A program made the position numbers and the translations under genes. Source: Shimia ponticola (GTDB taxonomy: Bacteria > Pseudomonadota > Alphaproteobacteria > Rhodobacterales > Rhodobacteraceae). From it: a stretch of 64,000 bases of DNA. Below, in pieces: positions 3,273-47,969 of this stretch (its first letter is position 1; the number at the start of each line of letters is the position of its first letter). The DNA is taken from contig NZ_VCDK01000006.1 in assembly GCF_007995215.1 (NCBI RefSeq), positions 558,001 through 622,000 of the forward strand, in the 5' to 3' direction. The notes under the pieces are model-generated. The model did not search any database, was not told where the DNA came from, and saw nothing but the letters and a program-made list of their open reading frames with translations.

Positions 3273-4661
3273 TTAGGGCAAGCGCCCCCACAAATCATAC
3301 TCGCCCGCCTCGTCGACTTCGACGCTCACAATCTGTCCGACTTTCAAACTCTCGGTGTCCTCATCAATAAAGAGGTTTCCGTCGATCTCGGGCGCGTCTG
3401 CCTTCGTGCGGCAGGTGGCGATGCCGTCTTCGTCGATGTCGTCAATGATGACGTCCATGGTCTGGCCGACCTTGGCGGCGAGTTTGGCTTCAGAGATGGC
3501 TTGCGCCTTTTCCATGAAGCGATCCCAGCGGTCTTGTTTGACCTCAGCAGGCACATGGTCCGGCAGTGCGTTGGAGCGCGCGCCGTCGACGTTTTCGTAT
3601 TGAAAGCATCCGACGCGGTCGAGTTGGGCCTCGTCCAGCCAGTCGAGCAGGGTCTGGAACTCGTCCTCGGTTTCACCGGGATACCCCACGATGAAGGTTG
3701 AGCGTAGTGTAATGTCCGGGCAGATACCGCGCCATTCGGCGATGCGGTCCAGCGTGCGTTCAGCGGCGGCAGGCCGGGCCATGCGGCGGAGTGTGTCGGG
3801 ATGGGCGTGCTGGAACGGGATGTCGAGGTATGGCAGCACTTTGCCGTCGGCCATCAGCGGGATGACCTCACGCACATGCGGGTAGGGATAGACGTAGTGC
3901 AGGCGCACCCAAATCTCACCCGGGGCGCCCAAGCTACCCAGATCGCGGGCCAGATCGGCGAAGTGGGCGCGATGACCACGCTCTTCGGCATGTTTGATGT
4001 CGATGCCGTAGGCGGAGGTGTCCTGACTGATGACCAACAGTTCCTTCACGCCTGCCTCAACCAGTTTCTCCGCTTCGCGCATCACCGCATGGGCCGGGCG
4101 GCTGACCAGACGACCGCGCATGTCCGGGATGATGCAGAATTTGCACTTGTGGTTACAGCCTTCGGAAATTTTCAGATAGCTGTAGTGGCGCGGGGTCAGC
4201 TTGATGCCCGACGCGGGCAGCAGGTCCACGAACGGGTCGGGGCTGGGCGGGACAGCCGCATGTACAGCGTCGAGCACTTGTTCGTATTGATGCGGGCCTG
4301 TCACGGCCAGCACCTTGGGATGCGCGCCGGTGATATAGTCAGGCTCTGCCCCCAGACATCCCGTCACGATCACCCGGCCATTGGCGGTCAGCGCCTCTCC
4401 AATGGCGTCGAGGCTTTCAGCCTTGGCCGAGTCCAGAAAGCCGCAGGTGTTAACGATCACTGCATCCGCGCCGTCGTAATCGGGGCTGATCTGATAGCCC
4501 TCACTCCGCAGCCGCGTGAGGATCCGTTCGCTGTCCACGAGCGCCTTGGGGCAGCCCAACGAGACCATGCCGATGGTCGGCTGGCCGGGGCGGCGCGGGG
4601 CAGGGGACAGCCGTGCCGAAGGTGCAAGATCAGGGCGCAGGTTAGGAGGGTTTTGAGCCAT
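3273..4661 (-). CDS. rimO: Ribosomal protein S12 methylthiotransferase RimO
   Basis: A 462-residue radical-SAM enzyme that methylthiolates an aspartate of ribosomal protein S12. The N-terminal UPF0004 domain has its three cluster cysteines at C37 ([12 protein letters not shown]), C73 (NTCGF) and C102 (TGCLG). The radical-SAM motif CNHKCKFC has C169, C173 and C176, followed by IIPDMRG, the RimO-type reading of this motif. A TRAM domain ends the protein ([26 protein letters not shown]...). The first 28 residues are a Pro-rich extension. Divergent from the AsmA gene, with about 95 bp shared upstream DNA. Confidence 0.97.
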
Positions 4662-33475: not shown

Positions 33476-34858
33476 ATGACCACCTTTTCGTCGGGACACC
33501 TTAACAGTGACGAAGTCAAAGCCTTGTGTGCTCTGGATGAAGGACAAAGAATGGATTTGAAATCTGCGAGAATACAGCCTGCAAAACTGTCCCAGGCAAT
33601 ATCAGCTTTTGCAAACACAGATGGCGGTGAGCTCTATATTGGCATTGAAGATGATAAAGCCTGGAAGGGATTTGAAAAGCAGGAGGAGGCGAATGGCCTT
33701 ACGAGTGTAATTTTTGACATGTTCCCTGTTCAGGACTATCTGCATGCGTCATTCCTGACCGGTGAAGGTCAACATGGGTATGTGCTAAAATTGGAGATAT
33801 TTCGAACTCCAGATGTTAAATTTGCCACCAACGGGAATGCCTACACACGGTTTGGAGCGCAAAATAGGAAGGTCGCTGGTTCAGATGCAATTATGCGTCT
33901 CAAGTACACGAAGGGAGTGCACTCGTTTGAAGATGAGTTGGTCAATGACTCGATAGAGGATGTAGTAAACTCCCTTGCAATCCTAGAATTCTCTCTCAGT
34001 TTGCCAACTGAGCCTGAGCCAATTGAATGGCTTAAGAAGCAAAAGCTCATTTCCGGCGGCCGAGCTAATGTTGCCGCATACATGCTCTTCGGCGAGGAGC
34101 CGCAAATCGAGTTTCCTAAAGCTGCGGTCAAGATTTATAGATATAAAACGGCTGCCCCTGAGGGAACACGTGACACGCTTGCATTTGATCCCAAGACCAT
34201 CGATGGACCACTTGTGTCGATGATTTCGGAGGCGGTAAAAACCACCAAGGAAGCTGTCCAAGATATCCCGAAAATCGGTGCGGTTGGTCTTGAGTCGGTT
34301 GTTTACCCCGAAGAGGCAATTCACGAAGTGTTAACCAATGCCGTATTGCATCGAGATTATAGCGCAAAGGATGAAGTGCACATTCGGATTTTTGACAACA
34401 GAATCGAAATATTTAGCCCCGGTAAGTTGCCTGGGTACGTTACTCCACAGAATATTTTGAAGGAGAGATTTGCCCGAAATCCAAAGATGGTTAGGATCGC
34501 CAATAAATTTCCGAACGCCCCAAACAAAGACATCGGAGAAGGGTTGAATACTACCTTTGAGAAAATGCGTGAACTAAAGCTTCGCGACCCCGTTATTGCA
34601 GAGTCTGAGGCTGGAGTTACAGTTACTTTGTTTCATGAACTGCTCGCATCGCCGGAGGAGATTATTAGTAAATACCTTGTTGAACATGGAGAAATAAATA
34701 ACTCGAAAGCGAGGGAGATTTGTAGGGAGGGTAGTGAAAACAAAATTAAGCGAGTTTTTGAACGTATGATGGGTTCCGAAATCATTGAAAGAATTCCGGG
34801 AAAGAGGGGTAGGGCCACTTCATATAGACTTAAGGTGATTGAAGCGGATGAAAGCTGA
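33476..34858 (+). CDS. AlbA_2 (Schlafen-like) and HATPase domain protein
   Basis: A 460-residue protein. The N-terminal Schlafen/AlbA_2 domain shows QRMDLKSAR and ISAFANTDGGELYIGIEDD. A middle HATPase_c_4-type domain shows PEEAIHEVLTNAVLHRDYS, IRIFDNRIEIFSPGKLPG and KDIGEGLNTTF. A winged-helix tail follows (about residues 395-455). Such proteins are found as putative regulators and in mobile or defence regions. GAGGA lies five bases before the ATG at 33476; a start at 33464 is possible. The gene is clearly AT-richer and uses more A/T-ending codons than its neighbours, which suggests recent transfer. Confidence 0.85.
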   Translation: MTTFSSGHLNSDEVKALCALDEGQRMDLKSARIQPAKLSQAISAFANTDGGELYIGIEDDKAWKGFEKQEEANGLTSVIFDMFPVQDYLHASFLTGEGQHGYVLKLEIFRTPDVKFATNGNAYTRFGAQNRKVAGSDAIMRLKYTKGVHSFEDELVNDSIEDVVNSLAILEFSLSLPTEPEPIEWLKKQKLISGGRANVAAYMLFGEEPQIEFPKAAVKIYRYKTAAPEGTRDTLAFDPKTIDGPLVSMISEAVKTTKEAVQDIPKIGAVGLESVVYPEEAIHEVLTNAVLHRDYSAKDEVHIRIFDNRIEIFSPGKLPGYVTPQNILKERFARNPKMVRIANKFPNAPNKDIGEGLNTTFEKMRELKLRDPVIAESEAGVTVTLFHELLASPEEIISKYLVEHGEINNSKAREICREGSENKIKRVFERMMGSEIIERIPGKRGRATSYRLKVIEADES

Positions 34859-43623: not shown

Positions 43624-45513
43624 CTAGGATTTGGCGTAACCCATTCCCTGCAATGCCTCTTTGATCTCATCAAGGATTGCTGGATCGTCAATGGTTGCTG
43701 GCATTTTGAAGGGTTCGCCATCGGCGATTTTGACCATCGTGCCACGCAGGATTTTGCCCGAGCGGGTTTTCGGCAGACGCTGCACAACGCAGGCCAGCTT
43801 GAAGGCCGCAACAGGTCCGATTTCCGAGCGAACCTTGGCGACGACTTCTTTCACGATCTCTGCGTCATCCCTGTCTGTCCCAGCGTTCAGGCACAAAAAG
43901 CCCATCGGTAGCTGGCCTTTCAGGGTATCAGTCACGCCGATCACTGCGCACTCGGCAACGTCCGGGTGCCCTGCAAGGACCTCTTCCATAGCGCCGGTCG
44001 ACAGGCGGTGGCCCGCGACGTTGATGACGTCATCGGTGCGCGCCATGATGTAGAGGTAACCGTCTTCGTCGATCATTCCGGCATCGCCGGTTTCGTAATA
44101 ACCTTCGAACGTGTTCAGATAGCTTTTCTTGAAGCGTTCCTCGGCATTCCAGAGCGTCGGTAGTGTACCAGGCGGCAAAGGCAGTTTGACGGCGATGGCA
44201 CCCAGCGTGTTGGGACCGAGTTGTTCGCCTTCATCATTCAAAATCTGCACGTCATAGCCGGGCATCGCCACCGTCGGTGAGCCAAGCTTGATCGGCAGTT
44301 GCTCAATGCCAGTTGGGTTTGCCGCGATGGCGTAGCCGGTTTCAGTTTGCCACCAGTGGTCGATCACCGGCACTTTCAGGTGCCGTTCAGCCCATTGGAT
44401 CGTGTCGGGGTCTGCGCGCTCACCTGCAAGGAACAGGCTTTCCAATGACGAAATGTCGTAGTCGCCGATCAGCTTGGCCTCTGGGTCATCCCGCTTGATC
44501 GCGCGGAAGGCGGTTGGGGCGGTAAAAAGGCATTTGACGTTGTGATCCTGAATGACGCGCCAGAATGTGCCTGCATCAGGCGTGCCGACGGGTTTACCTT
44601 CGAACACGATCGTCGTGTTGCCGTGGATGAGCGGCGCATAGCAGATATAGCTATGGCCCACGACCCAACCGACGTCTGAAGCGGCCCAGAAAACGTCGCC
44701 GGGGTCGATGTTGTAGATGTTCTTCATCGTCCAATTCAGAGCAACGAGGTGGCCGGCAGTGTGCCGCACGACGCCTTTGGGCTGACCGGTCGTACCCGAG
44801 GTATAGAGGATATAGGCTGGGTGGTTGCCTTCGACCGGGACGCAATCAACCGGGGCGATGCCTTCCTGCATGCGGTGCCAGTCCAGATCGCGTTCGCCCA
44901 ATTCACAGGGACCTTCTTCGCGCTGAAGGATGACGCAAAAGTCAGGCTTGTGTTCGGCTAGCTCAATGGCCCCATCAAGCAGTGGTTTGTATGCAACCAC
45001 GCGGCCGGGTTCGCAGCCGCAGGATGCAGCAAGGATCGCCTTGGGCGTCGCGTCGTCGATGCGCACGGCAAGCTCGTTTGCGGCAAACCCGCCGAAGACG
45101 ACCGAGTGGATCGCACCAATGCGGGAGCAGGCCAGCATGGCGACCAATGCCTCGGGTACCATCGGCATGTAGATGATGACCCGGTCGCCTTTGGTAATCC
45201 CGTTCGCTGCAAGCGCACCTGCAAGCCGCGACACCTGATCCTTCAATTCCGCGTAAGATGTCTTGCCGGCTTTGCCGGTGATCGGGCTGTCATAGATGAT
45301 GGCGGTCTGGTCACCGCGCCCGGCCTCTACATGTCGGTCGACGGCGTTCCAGCAGGTATTGACCTTGGCATCGGTGAACCACTGATAAAGTGGCGCGTTG
45401 CTGTCATCCAACGCGCGGGACGGGGCCTGATCCCAATCAATCGCCTCAGACGCCTGCATCCAGAATGCCTCTGGGTCAGCTTGCCACGCGTGATACACGT
45501 CTTTGTAGGTCAT
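43624..45513 (-). CDS. prpE: Propionyl-CoA synthetase PrpE
   Basis: A 629-residue acyl-CoA synthetase that activates propionate. The N-terminus TYKDVYHAWQADPEAFWMQ is PrpE-like and the length matches. The AMP-binding P-loop is YILYTSGTTGQPKGVVR, then DVGWVVGHSYICYAPL, WWQTETGYAI, GYYETGDAGMIDEDGYLYIMARTDDVINVAGHRLS and the catalytic lysine in KTRSGKILRG. GGGAGGA precedes the ATG at 45513. Five TTTGCA boxes lie upstream, suggesting control by a short-chain acyl-CoA-responsive regulator. Confidence 0.95.
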   Translation of the reverse strand: MTYKDVYHAWQADPEAFWMQASEAIDWDQAPSRALDDSNAPLYQWFTDAKVNTCWNAVDRHVEAGRGDQTAIIYDSPITGKAGKTSYAELKDQVSRLAGALAANGITKGDRVIIYMPMVPEALVAMLACSRIGAIHSVVFGGFAANELAVRIDDATPKAILAASCGCEPGRVVAYKPLLDGAIELAEHKPDFCVILQREEGPCELGERDLDWHRMQEGIAPVDCVPVEGNHPAYILYTSGTTGQPKGVVRHTAGHLVALNWTMKNIYNIDPGDVFWAASDVGWVVGHSYICYAPLIHGNTTIVFEGKPVGTPDAGTFWRVIQDHNVKCLFTAPTAFRAIKRDDPEAKLIGDYDISSLESLFLAGERADPDTIQWAERHLKVPVIDHWWQTETGYAIAANPTGIEQLPIKLGSPTVAMPGYDVQILNDEGEQLGPNTLGAIAVKLPLPPGTLPTLWNAEERFKKSYLNTFEGYYETGDAGMIDEDGYLYIMARTDDVINVAGHRLSTGAMEEVLAGHPDVAECAVIGVTDTLKGQLPMGFLCLNAGTDRDDAEIVKEVVAKVRSEIGPVAAFKLACVVQRLPKTRSGKILRGTMVKIADGEPFKMPATIDDPAILDEIKEALQGMGYAKS

Positions 45514-45618
45514 CAGTCGTCCTCCCGTCTTCCGACAAAAGGCATAGGGGGTGCGCAATAGGGCGATCAAGCGTGGATGCGCCCTTGTTCGCGCCAACAG
45601 GGAAATATGTCGCGGACC

Positions 45619-45689
45619 TTTGCAGCGATTTGCAGCTGAATTTTGCAAAGAAGCGCCTGTAGGTGCAGGCGCTTTGCAGAGTTTGCAAT
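45619..45689 (-). promoter_or_regulatory. Array of five TTTGCA boxes upstream of prpE
   Basis: On the plus strand, TTTGCAGC (45619), TTTGCAGC (45629), TTTGCAAA (45642), TTTGCAGA (45673) and TTTGCAAT (45682) lie in 71 bp. The half-sites resemble the TTTGCAAA sites of PccR/ScfR-type regulators of propionyl-CoA metabolism. Confidence 0.65.
45651..45674 (-). terminator. Hairpin after maeB
   Basis: A perfect 9-bp stem AAGCGCCTG/CAGGCGCTT with a six-base loop, 16 bases past the maeB stop. On the minus strand it is followed by CTTTGC. It lies among the TTTGCA boxes. Confidence 0.55.
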
Positions 45690-47969
45690 CTAGCCGTAAT
45701 GCGCCACCGGTGTGCCCGCCAGCGCAGTCATGTTGAGCAGACCGCGTGCGGTGATCGACGGAGTCACGATGTGTGCGCGGTTGCCCATGCCCATGAGGAT
45801 CGGTCCAACCTCAAGACCGCCTGCCTTCATCTTGAGGATATTGCGGACGCCGGATGCAGCATCAGAGTTTCCAAAGACCAGCACGTTGGCCTGACCTGTC
45901 AGGCGCGAGTCCGGGAAAATGCGCGCACGCAGTTCCGGGTTGAGCGCGGTTTCGACATGCATTTCGCCTTCATAGACGAAGTCGCGGTCTTCGCTATCCA
46001 GCAGGTCCAGCGCTGCGCGCATCGTGCGCCCGGTACCGCAATCCTGATCGCCGAATTGCGAGCGGCTCATCAAGGCAATGTTCGGGGTGATCCCGAAGCG
46101 CCTGACGTGGCGAGCGCAGCCAATGACCGTTTCGCAAATCTGCTCTGGCGTCGGCTGATCGTGAACATGCGTGTCGGCGAGGTAGAGCGGCCCATCCTCT
46201 AGGATCATCATTGATAGCGCACCGACAGGGTGCAATTGATCCGTCCCGACCTGTCCGGTGCCAAGGCATTCCGTTAAGTATTTCAGGTGCCAGTGATACT
46301 GACCGAAGGTGCCGCAGATCAGGCTGTCGGCCTCTTCGCGGTGGACCATGACCGCGCCGATGGCTGTGGTGTTTGTCCGCATAATCGCGCGGGCGATGTC
46401 GGGCGTCACGCCACGGCGTGCCATCATCGAATGATAGGTACCCCAGTAGTCGCGGTAACGCGGGTCATTATTTGGGTCGACGACCTGAAAGTCGCCAGGC
46501 CGAATTTTGAGACCAGCGCGCTCACAGCGTTGGGCAATCACGTCGGGACGGCCGATCAGGATCGGTTGTTCGGTCAAATCCTCCATCGTCGCCTGAGCGC
46601 AGCGCAGCACACGCTCGTCTTCGCCCTCGGCAAATACGATCCGGCGCGATGATGTTGCAGCGGCTTCGAAGACCGGGCGCATGATCAGGGCCGATTTGAA
46701 GACCGAGCCGTCGAGGTCGGCCTTGTAGGCCTCAAGATCCGCGATGGGTTTCGTGGCTACACCGCTCTCCATAGCGGCACGGGCCACGGCGGTGGCCACA
46801 ACCCCCATGAGGCGCGGGTCGAATGGTTTAGGGATCAGGTAATCAGCCCCGAATGTCAGCTTTTCACCAGAGTAAGCGGCGGCTGCCTCGGCAGATGTTG
46901 TTTCGCGGGCCAGTGCTGCGATGCCTTCGATACAGCCCAGCTTCATCGCGTCGTTGATTTCGGTCGCGCCCACATCCAACGCGCCTCGGAAGATGAACGG
47001 GAAGCAAAGGACGTTGTTGACCTGATTGGGGAAGTCGCTGCGGCCAGTCGCAATGATGGCCTGTGGCGCAACTTCGCGGGCGGCTTCTGGAAGGATTTCG
47101 GGTGTGGGATTGGCAAGCGCGAAAATGATGGGACGGTCGGCCATTTTGGCGACCATGTCAGGCTTCAGCACGTTCGGGCCCGAGAGGCCAAGGAACAGGT
47201 CCGCGCCTTCGATGACGTCGTCCAGGGTCGCGGGCGTTTTGCCTTGGGCGTATTCCGCCTTCTGCGGGGTCATGTCGTTTTCTCGGCCTTCATAAACAAG
47301 GCCTTCGATATCGCAGAGCCAGACATTTTCGCGTTTGACGCCCAGTTTCAGCAACATGTTGAGGCATGCGATCCCGGCTGCCCCGCCGCCGGTCGAGACG
47401 ATCTTGATATCCTCAAACGCTTTGCCCGCAACGCGCAGCGCATTTGTTGCCGCCGCGCCGACGACGATGGCGGTGCCATGTTGGTCGTCGTGGAAGACAG
47501 GGATGTTCATCCGCTCATTGCAGAGTTTTTCCACAATGAAACAGTCGGGGGCCTTGATGTCTTCGAGGTTGATGGCCCCAAAGGTGGGCTCTAGCGCGCA
47601 AACGATATCCGCAATCTTTTCCGGATCGGACTCATTTAGTTCAATGTCAAAACAATCGATATTGGCGAATTTCTTGAATAGGACCGCCTTACCTTCCATC
47701 ACGGGCTTGGATGCCAGCGCGCCGATATTTCCAAGGCCCAGAACAGCTGATCCATTGGTCACAACCGCTACTAGGTTACCACGTGCTGTGTAGTCTGATG
47801 CGCGGGCCGGATCGGTGTGGATGGCGCTAGAAGCTTCTGCAACGCCGGGCGAATAGGCAAGAGCCAGGTCGCGCCCGTTGGCCAATGGCTTGGTTGCGCG
47901 GATTTCGAGTTTGCCGGGCTTTGGCTCTTGATGATAGCGCAGAGCCGGGCTGTCAAAGTCGCTGGCCAT
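45690..47969 (-). CDS. maeB: NADP-dependent malic enzyme, phosphotransacetylase-fused form
   Basis: A 759-residue MaeB. The N-terminal malic enzyme domain (about residues 1-430) shows [43 protein letters not shown] and the Rossmann-type [15 protein letters not shown], with [13 protein letters not shown] later. The C-terminal part (about 440-755) resembles phosphotransacetylase ([26 protein letters not shown]), normally regulatory here. It decarboxylates malate to pyruvate. The ATG at 47969 has GGGGAG upstream. Confidence 0.96.

Follow-up and report, generated by a model that had tools for sequence, protein, structure and literature searches.

What do five copies of one short sequence, crowded into 71 bp in front of a gene for propionate activation, do there? 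The locus lies in the window analyzed here, the whole 64,000-nucleotide stretch of the Shimia ponticola contig NZ_VCDK01000006.1 (positions 558,001 to 622,000). All five copies of TTTGCA have the same orientation and fall between maeB and prpE, two genes on the reverse strand, about 107 to 176 bp 5' of the prpE start, at exactly the positions expected from an earlier note on this DNA. We propose, with a probability of roughly 0.78, that these boxes form an operator array for PccR, a regulator of the ScfR family, and that PccR would activate prpE from them. The boxes are read as PccR sites because the same words stand before other propionate genes and are absent from relatives that lack the regulator. 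The individual boxes are as follows, with centers counted from the prpE ATG.

45619 to 45624, forward strand: box 1, TTTGCA (TGCAAA on the prpE strand), center about -110
45629 to 45634, forward strand: box 2, TTTGCA, center about -120
45642 to 45649, palindromic, no strand assigned: box 3, the full palindrome TTTGCAAA, center about -133, the counterpart, by alignment, of the proximal palindrome in relatives
45673 to 45678, forward strand: box 4, TTTGCA, center about -164, overlapping a hairpin arm by 2 bases
45682 to 45687, forward strand: box 5, TTTGCA, center about -173, immediately past the maeB stop

The gaps of 2, 5, 23, and 1 bases given in the earlier note hold for boxes counted as 8-mers; between the TTTGCA 6-mers themselves the gaps are 4, 7, 25, and 3 bases, and the spacings between centers, read toward prpE, are 9, 31, 13, and 10. 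Over the window as a whole, TTTGCA shows no enrichment (51 copies, 46 expected). When the window was simulated 400 times with a first-order Markov model, no 71-bp segment held more than 3 same-strand copies, a count found in 3 of the simulations, versus the 5 observed, and chance clustering was therefore rejected. Across the whole genome, pairs of TTTGCA 1 to 20 bp apart number 29, versus 6 for the reversed pattern, and pairs 21 to 50 bp apart number 32 versus 10; TTTGCAAA occurs at 98 places versus 37. Two pairs were set aside as candidates: that at 33580/33608 in the window, which falls within an open reading frame of 464 amino acids and was taken as chance, and that at 3899/3909 of locus L036, which appears by eye to be coding signal sequence on the forward strand and was not counted as regulatory.

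A PccR-type regulator and shared boxes at other propionate genes

When the entire genome was searched for the ScfRs family (PF09856), a single full member (1.7e-70) and a single weak one turned up. The full member has the architecture of PccR, an XRE-type helix-turn-helix (HTH_3), an M78/IrrE-like Peptidase_M78 domain, and a C-terminal ScfRs domain (8.2e-70), all above cut-off. Its closest relatives in the PDB are the PrpR entries of Mycobacterium tuberculosis (6cyy, 2.5e-93), with which its Cys-rich C-terminal region aligns, Cys residues included; binding of an iron-sulphur cluster and of an acyl-coenzyme A (acyl-CoA) is putative. The gene (L001 595-1983) stands beside the divergent pccB (L032 2360-3895), with an MFS gene in between. 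In a tree of 41 rows, which leaves out the characterized Rhodobacter sphaeroides row and the ScfR genes of L216 (G025) and L217 (G029), the protein groups with that of a sister species (G002) inside a 36-row PccR clade, split from four MccR/RamB-like rows with support of 98/99. The clade takes its name from gene neighborhood and from passages of PMC10370305 that place a putative PccR, MccR, and RamB in Rhodobacter capsulatus. The earlier note had advised looking for a gene of the PccR/ScfR type, and this full ScfR near pccB is such a gene.

The weak member (L002 1258-2553) is a second ScfR-like XRE protein of 431 amino acids, which has an HTH and matches ScfRs weakly. Its gene stands beside that for a response regulator, with an acs-like gene (G000:C6:411402) about 6 kb away, and the protein is possibly an acetate-related regulator.

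The boxes before prpE recur at the promoters of pccB and of pccR itself, each of which carries two copies of TTTGCAAA 32 bp apart in this genome. Among 41 scanned loci from relatives and this genome, 22 pccB promoters could be located; every one has at least one box, 20 have the full palindrome, and 14 have the 32-bp pair. A palindrome lies no more than 300 bp upstream of 27 of the 29 PccR-type genes. In the alignment of pccR promoters, judged by eye, it is often flanked by a -35 resembling CTTGC and a -10 resembling CTA, a placement that suggests autorepression. The comparison of pcc and mcm upstream regions proposed in the earlier note bears out boxes before pccB but not at mcm, which shares the strand of pccB, lies about 6 kb 3' of it, and lacks a box array directly upstream (L237). 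The note had staked its reading on a regulator gene and on boxes near other propionate genes, and the genome contains both.

Beyond pccB and pccR, the TTTGCA pair scans of this genome listed a double TTTGCAAA at two places only (L033 6556-6576 and L034 5926-5956), with spacings of 13 and 23 bp; both places precede genes that encode RTX calcium-binding repeat proteins.

Co-occurrence and geometry in relatives

In the genomes compared, array and regulator vary together. Among 235 genomes of the family (at least 90% complete, this genome included), 14 have no ScfRs match. A PccR-negative set was made of these, 14 genomes with weak matches only (best E 1.4e-21 or worse), and the sister species G001; the PccR-positive controls were G002 and 28 genomes taken by stepping down the list. 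Four genomes with no prpE-like match above the acs level (G120, G135, G176, and G194) were dropped from the negative set and one with prpE split at contig ends (G077) from the controls, and a second copy in G100 (L350) was not counted. At least three boxes occur in the 260 bp upstream of prpE in 0 of 25 PccR-negative versus 10 of 28 PccR-positive genomes (Fisher p 8e-4, kinship ignored), and at least two boxes occur in 1 of 25 versus 11 of 28 (p 0.003, with the same limit).

Within the genus, three genomes could be compared. S. ponticola (G000) combines PccR with boxes at all three of pccB, pccR, and prpE, and G002 has PccR, the 32-bp palindrome pair at pccB, and a single palindrome at prpE. 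In G001, which is 93% complete, regulator and boxes are lost together: it lacks an ScfR, and neither its pccB nor its prpE has boxes. The pccB and MFS genes are kept there, and the next conserved gene begins 3 bp past the MFS gene, at the expected place of pccR (L290 4086-6203 compared with L032 4055-7887; genes beyond MFS matched by eye). The genus offers a natural experiment, in which one species has regulator and array, another the regulator and a single palindrome at prpE, and the third neither regulator nor boxes.

A broader sample shows how the arrays are built. Of 80 prpE loci fetched, the first 40 (L082 to L121, mostly Rhodobacteraceae by title) were studied, and 24 of them, the R. capsulatus locus (L115) included, have at least three boxes within 240 bp upstream of prpE; one box was found in 3 loci and none in 13. 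The other loci are more distant or incomplete; 39 of them were scanned, L143 being excluded for want of a prpE start, and none has such an array. One of these, L145, has four TTTGCA spread across 200 bp upstream of prpE. A full ScfR is present in all 24 array genomes and some match in 39 of the 40; because most genomes without an array have an ScfR too, this set alone does not discriminate. The arrays hold three to seven boxes in a nearly fixed geometry. Counted from the proximal palindrome, the box positions that repeat across loci are -71 (5 loci), -57 (7), -49 (15, with 7 more at -48 or -50), +10 (15), and +32/+33 (17). The array in the window can be aligned to these by its own proximal palindrome and has its own spacing.

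The earlier note had described known PccR/ScfR sites as repeats with a four-base gap, TTTGCAAA-N4-TTTGCAAA. This geometry was not borne out, since the corresponding 12-bp center spacing occurs not once among the adjacent spacings of the 24 prpE arrays or among the pccB pairs, and N4 is perhaps no defining trait within this bacterial family.

Several observations weigh against PccR control of prpE through this array. The Fisher tests take no account of kinship, and PccR status was assigned from family score rather than from a tree. Arrays of at least three boxes are missing from 18 of the 28 PccR-positive genomes, so PccR control of prpE is not general, and G002 itself has PccR yet only one palindrome before prpE. 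The spacing in the window departs from the positions shared by relatives, and the genome encodes a second, weak ScfR-like protein.

Proposed control of prpE and the maeB hairpin

In the model that we favor, a short-chain acyl-CoA, propionyl-CoA for example, would be the signal that PccR senses. The complex of PccR and acyl-CoA would occupy several of the TTTGCA/TTTGCAAA boxes, probably cooperatively, and would activate prpE from a place 5' of the putative -35. Propionate activation by PrpE and propionyl-CoA carboxylation by PccB would then be switched jointly, and the palindrome between the putative -35 and -10 at pccR would let PccR repress its own gene. Passages of PMC12632250 describe PccR of Cereibacter sphaeroides as controlling pccB and propionyl-CoA carboxylase, and, according to passages of PMC10370305, deletion of pccR in R. 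capsulatus leads to poorer growth on propionate. The features that surround the array are as follows.

43624 to 45513, reverse strand: prpE, propionate-CoA ligase (acyl-CoA synthetase), NCBIfam NF007815, E 4e-219, 729/955 bits, under the curated cut-off; ATG at 45513, preceded by GGAGGA
45542 to 45570, reverse strand: putative prpE promoter, -35 TTGATC (45570-45565), 17-bp spacer, -10 CTATGC (45547-45542), by eye from the alignment
45651 to 45674, reverse strand: perfect 9-bp inverted repeat with a 6-nucleotide loop, probable maeB terminator, between boxes 3 and 4
45690 to 47969, reverse strand: maeB, NADP-dependent malic enzyme with a phosphotransacetylase-like C terminus, family match under the curated cut-off; gene end at 45690

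Relatives have CTTGCC and CTAACA at the position of the putative prpE promoter; a simple sigma-70 scan of the maeB-prpE intergenic region called no promoter, and a simple terminator scan of the same region called no terminator. The hairpin that the earlier note had placed between boxes 3 and 4 is there as a perfect inverted repeat, and its right arm covers 2 bases of box 4. On the reverse strand, read 5' to 3', it is followed by CTTTGCAAAA, and this strand folds better than shuffled sequences (z -2.3); the hairpin is probably the terminator of maeB. The further suggestion that regulator binding and maeB termination share DNA is true by position in this genome but does not extend to a general feature. 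Among the 24 arrays of relatives, a hairpin lies directly before the distal palindrome, abutting a box, in 2 (L113 and L120), and within the array in 1 (L115); the remaining arrays have hairpins upstream or none that was found. The sharing is real here and is not conserved.

A bolder version of the model is tentative and, in our estimate, unlikely. Here a higher-order PccR complex, assembled on as many as six or seven boxes in fixed geometry, would control prpE in the Rhodobacteraceae, and the rearranged five-box version in the window would enclose the maeB terminator, where PccR could tune read-through from maeB into prpE as well as initiation. If this were true, the prpE complex, with boxes at -71, -57, -49, 0, +10, and +32/33 around the palindrome, would be far larger than the known two-box ScfR sites.

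The position of the hairpin, inside the array and overlapping box 4, also lends something to the view that PccR is a repressor here, or acts mainly on maeB read-through through the terminator region rather than as an activator of prpE. An ScfR protein can work both ways, as passages of PMC10370305 report for RamB of Paracoccus denitrificans. In the alignment, however, the boxes lie well 5' of the putative -35, a place typical of an activator, and most of the 24 arrays of relatives have no hairpin inside, which argues that the array is independent of the hairpin; we consider this explanation improbable. Another candidate is the second ScfR-like protein, L002, which might bind the boxes in place of PccR. 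It has an HTH and a weak family match, and a P. denitrificans protein that figures in an ScfR network is likewise encoded in a cluster with a two-component system (passages of PMC10370305). Against this, 13 of the 25 PccR-negative genomes with prpE keep a weak ScfR match (a putative orthologue of L002) and none of them has an array of at least three boxes, and no box pair stands just before the L002 gene itself (L048), which together leave this assignment quite improbable. That the array is a chance AT-rich repeat, or a remnant out of use, might be read from a geometry unlike that of relatives and from the single palindrome and the missing boxes in the two sister species, but it is the least credible explanation, given five exact boxes versus at most three in the simulations and given that this genome keeps both the regulator and its pccB and pccR sites intact.

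Relation to known ScfR sites

The closest parallel to the proposed activation of prpE by PccR is PccR of R. (Cereibacter) sphaeroides, a member of the same family encoded next to pccB; passages of PMC12632250 describe it as controlling propionyl-CoA carboxylase. The differences are the five-box array before prpE and the N4 spacing quoted in the earlier note, which was seen in no array measured here. The study of the R. sphaeroides protein by Carter and Alber in 2015, cited by both PMC10370305 and PMC12632250, reportedly gave the TTTGCAAA word as its motif. M. tuberculosis PrpR, of the MccR group of the ScfR family, shares the 9-bp step found here between boxes 4 and 5, and no solved structure is closer to the PccR protein than its entry 6cyy; in contrast, PrpR uses two boxes at methylcitrate-cycle genes, whereas the array here has five, before a ligase gene, in a methylmalonyl-CoA pathway. 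P. denitrificans RamB, a class 2 ScfR, is described in passages of PMC10370305 as a CoA-ester-binding activator that likewise uses two near-identical boxes with a fixed spacer, but the spacer is 18 bp, the target belongs to the glyoxylate cycle, and the protein falls in another ScfR subgroup. More generally, the passages of that paper describe ScfR sites as two boxes plus a spacer, and passages of PMC6765138 describe one as a perfect palindrome and an imperfect one separated by a single base.

No description of prpE as a PccR target was found in the literature searched, a search that did not extend to the original PccR study (Carter and Alber 2015). The gene would extend a regulon of known type, and its array exceeds the two boxes on record for the family; the novelty is uncertain. 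Such an addition would give propionate activation and the carboxylation of propionyl-CoA a common regulator across a large family of marine and phototrophic bacteria. One of the routes proposed for handling acrylate from the cleavage of dimethylsulfoniopropionate (DMSP) also includes PrpE, according to PMC5651017. The array is, moreover, a clear test case for the use of many boxes by an ScfR regulator.

The MccR/RamB-like genes of the family (L207 and L209) have TTGCGAA-type repeats upstream in place of TTTGCAAA, which suggests that ScfR subgroups differ by one base in the box.
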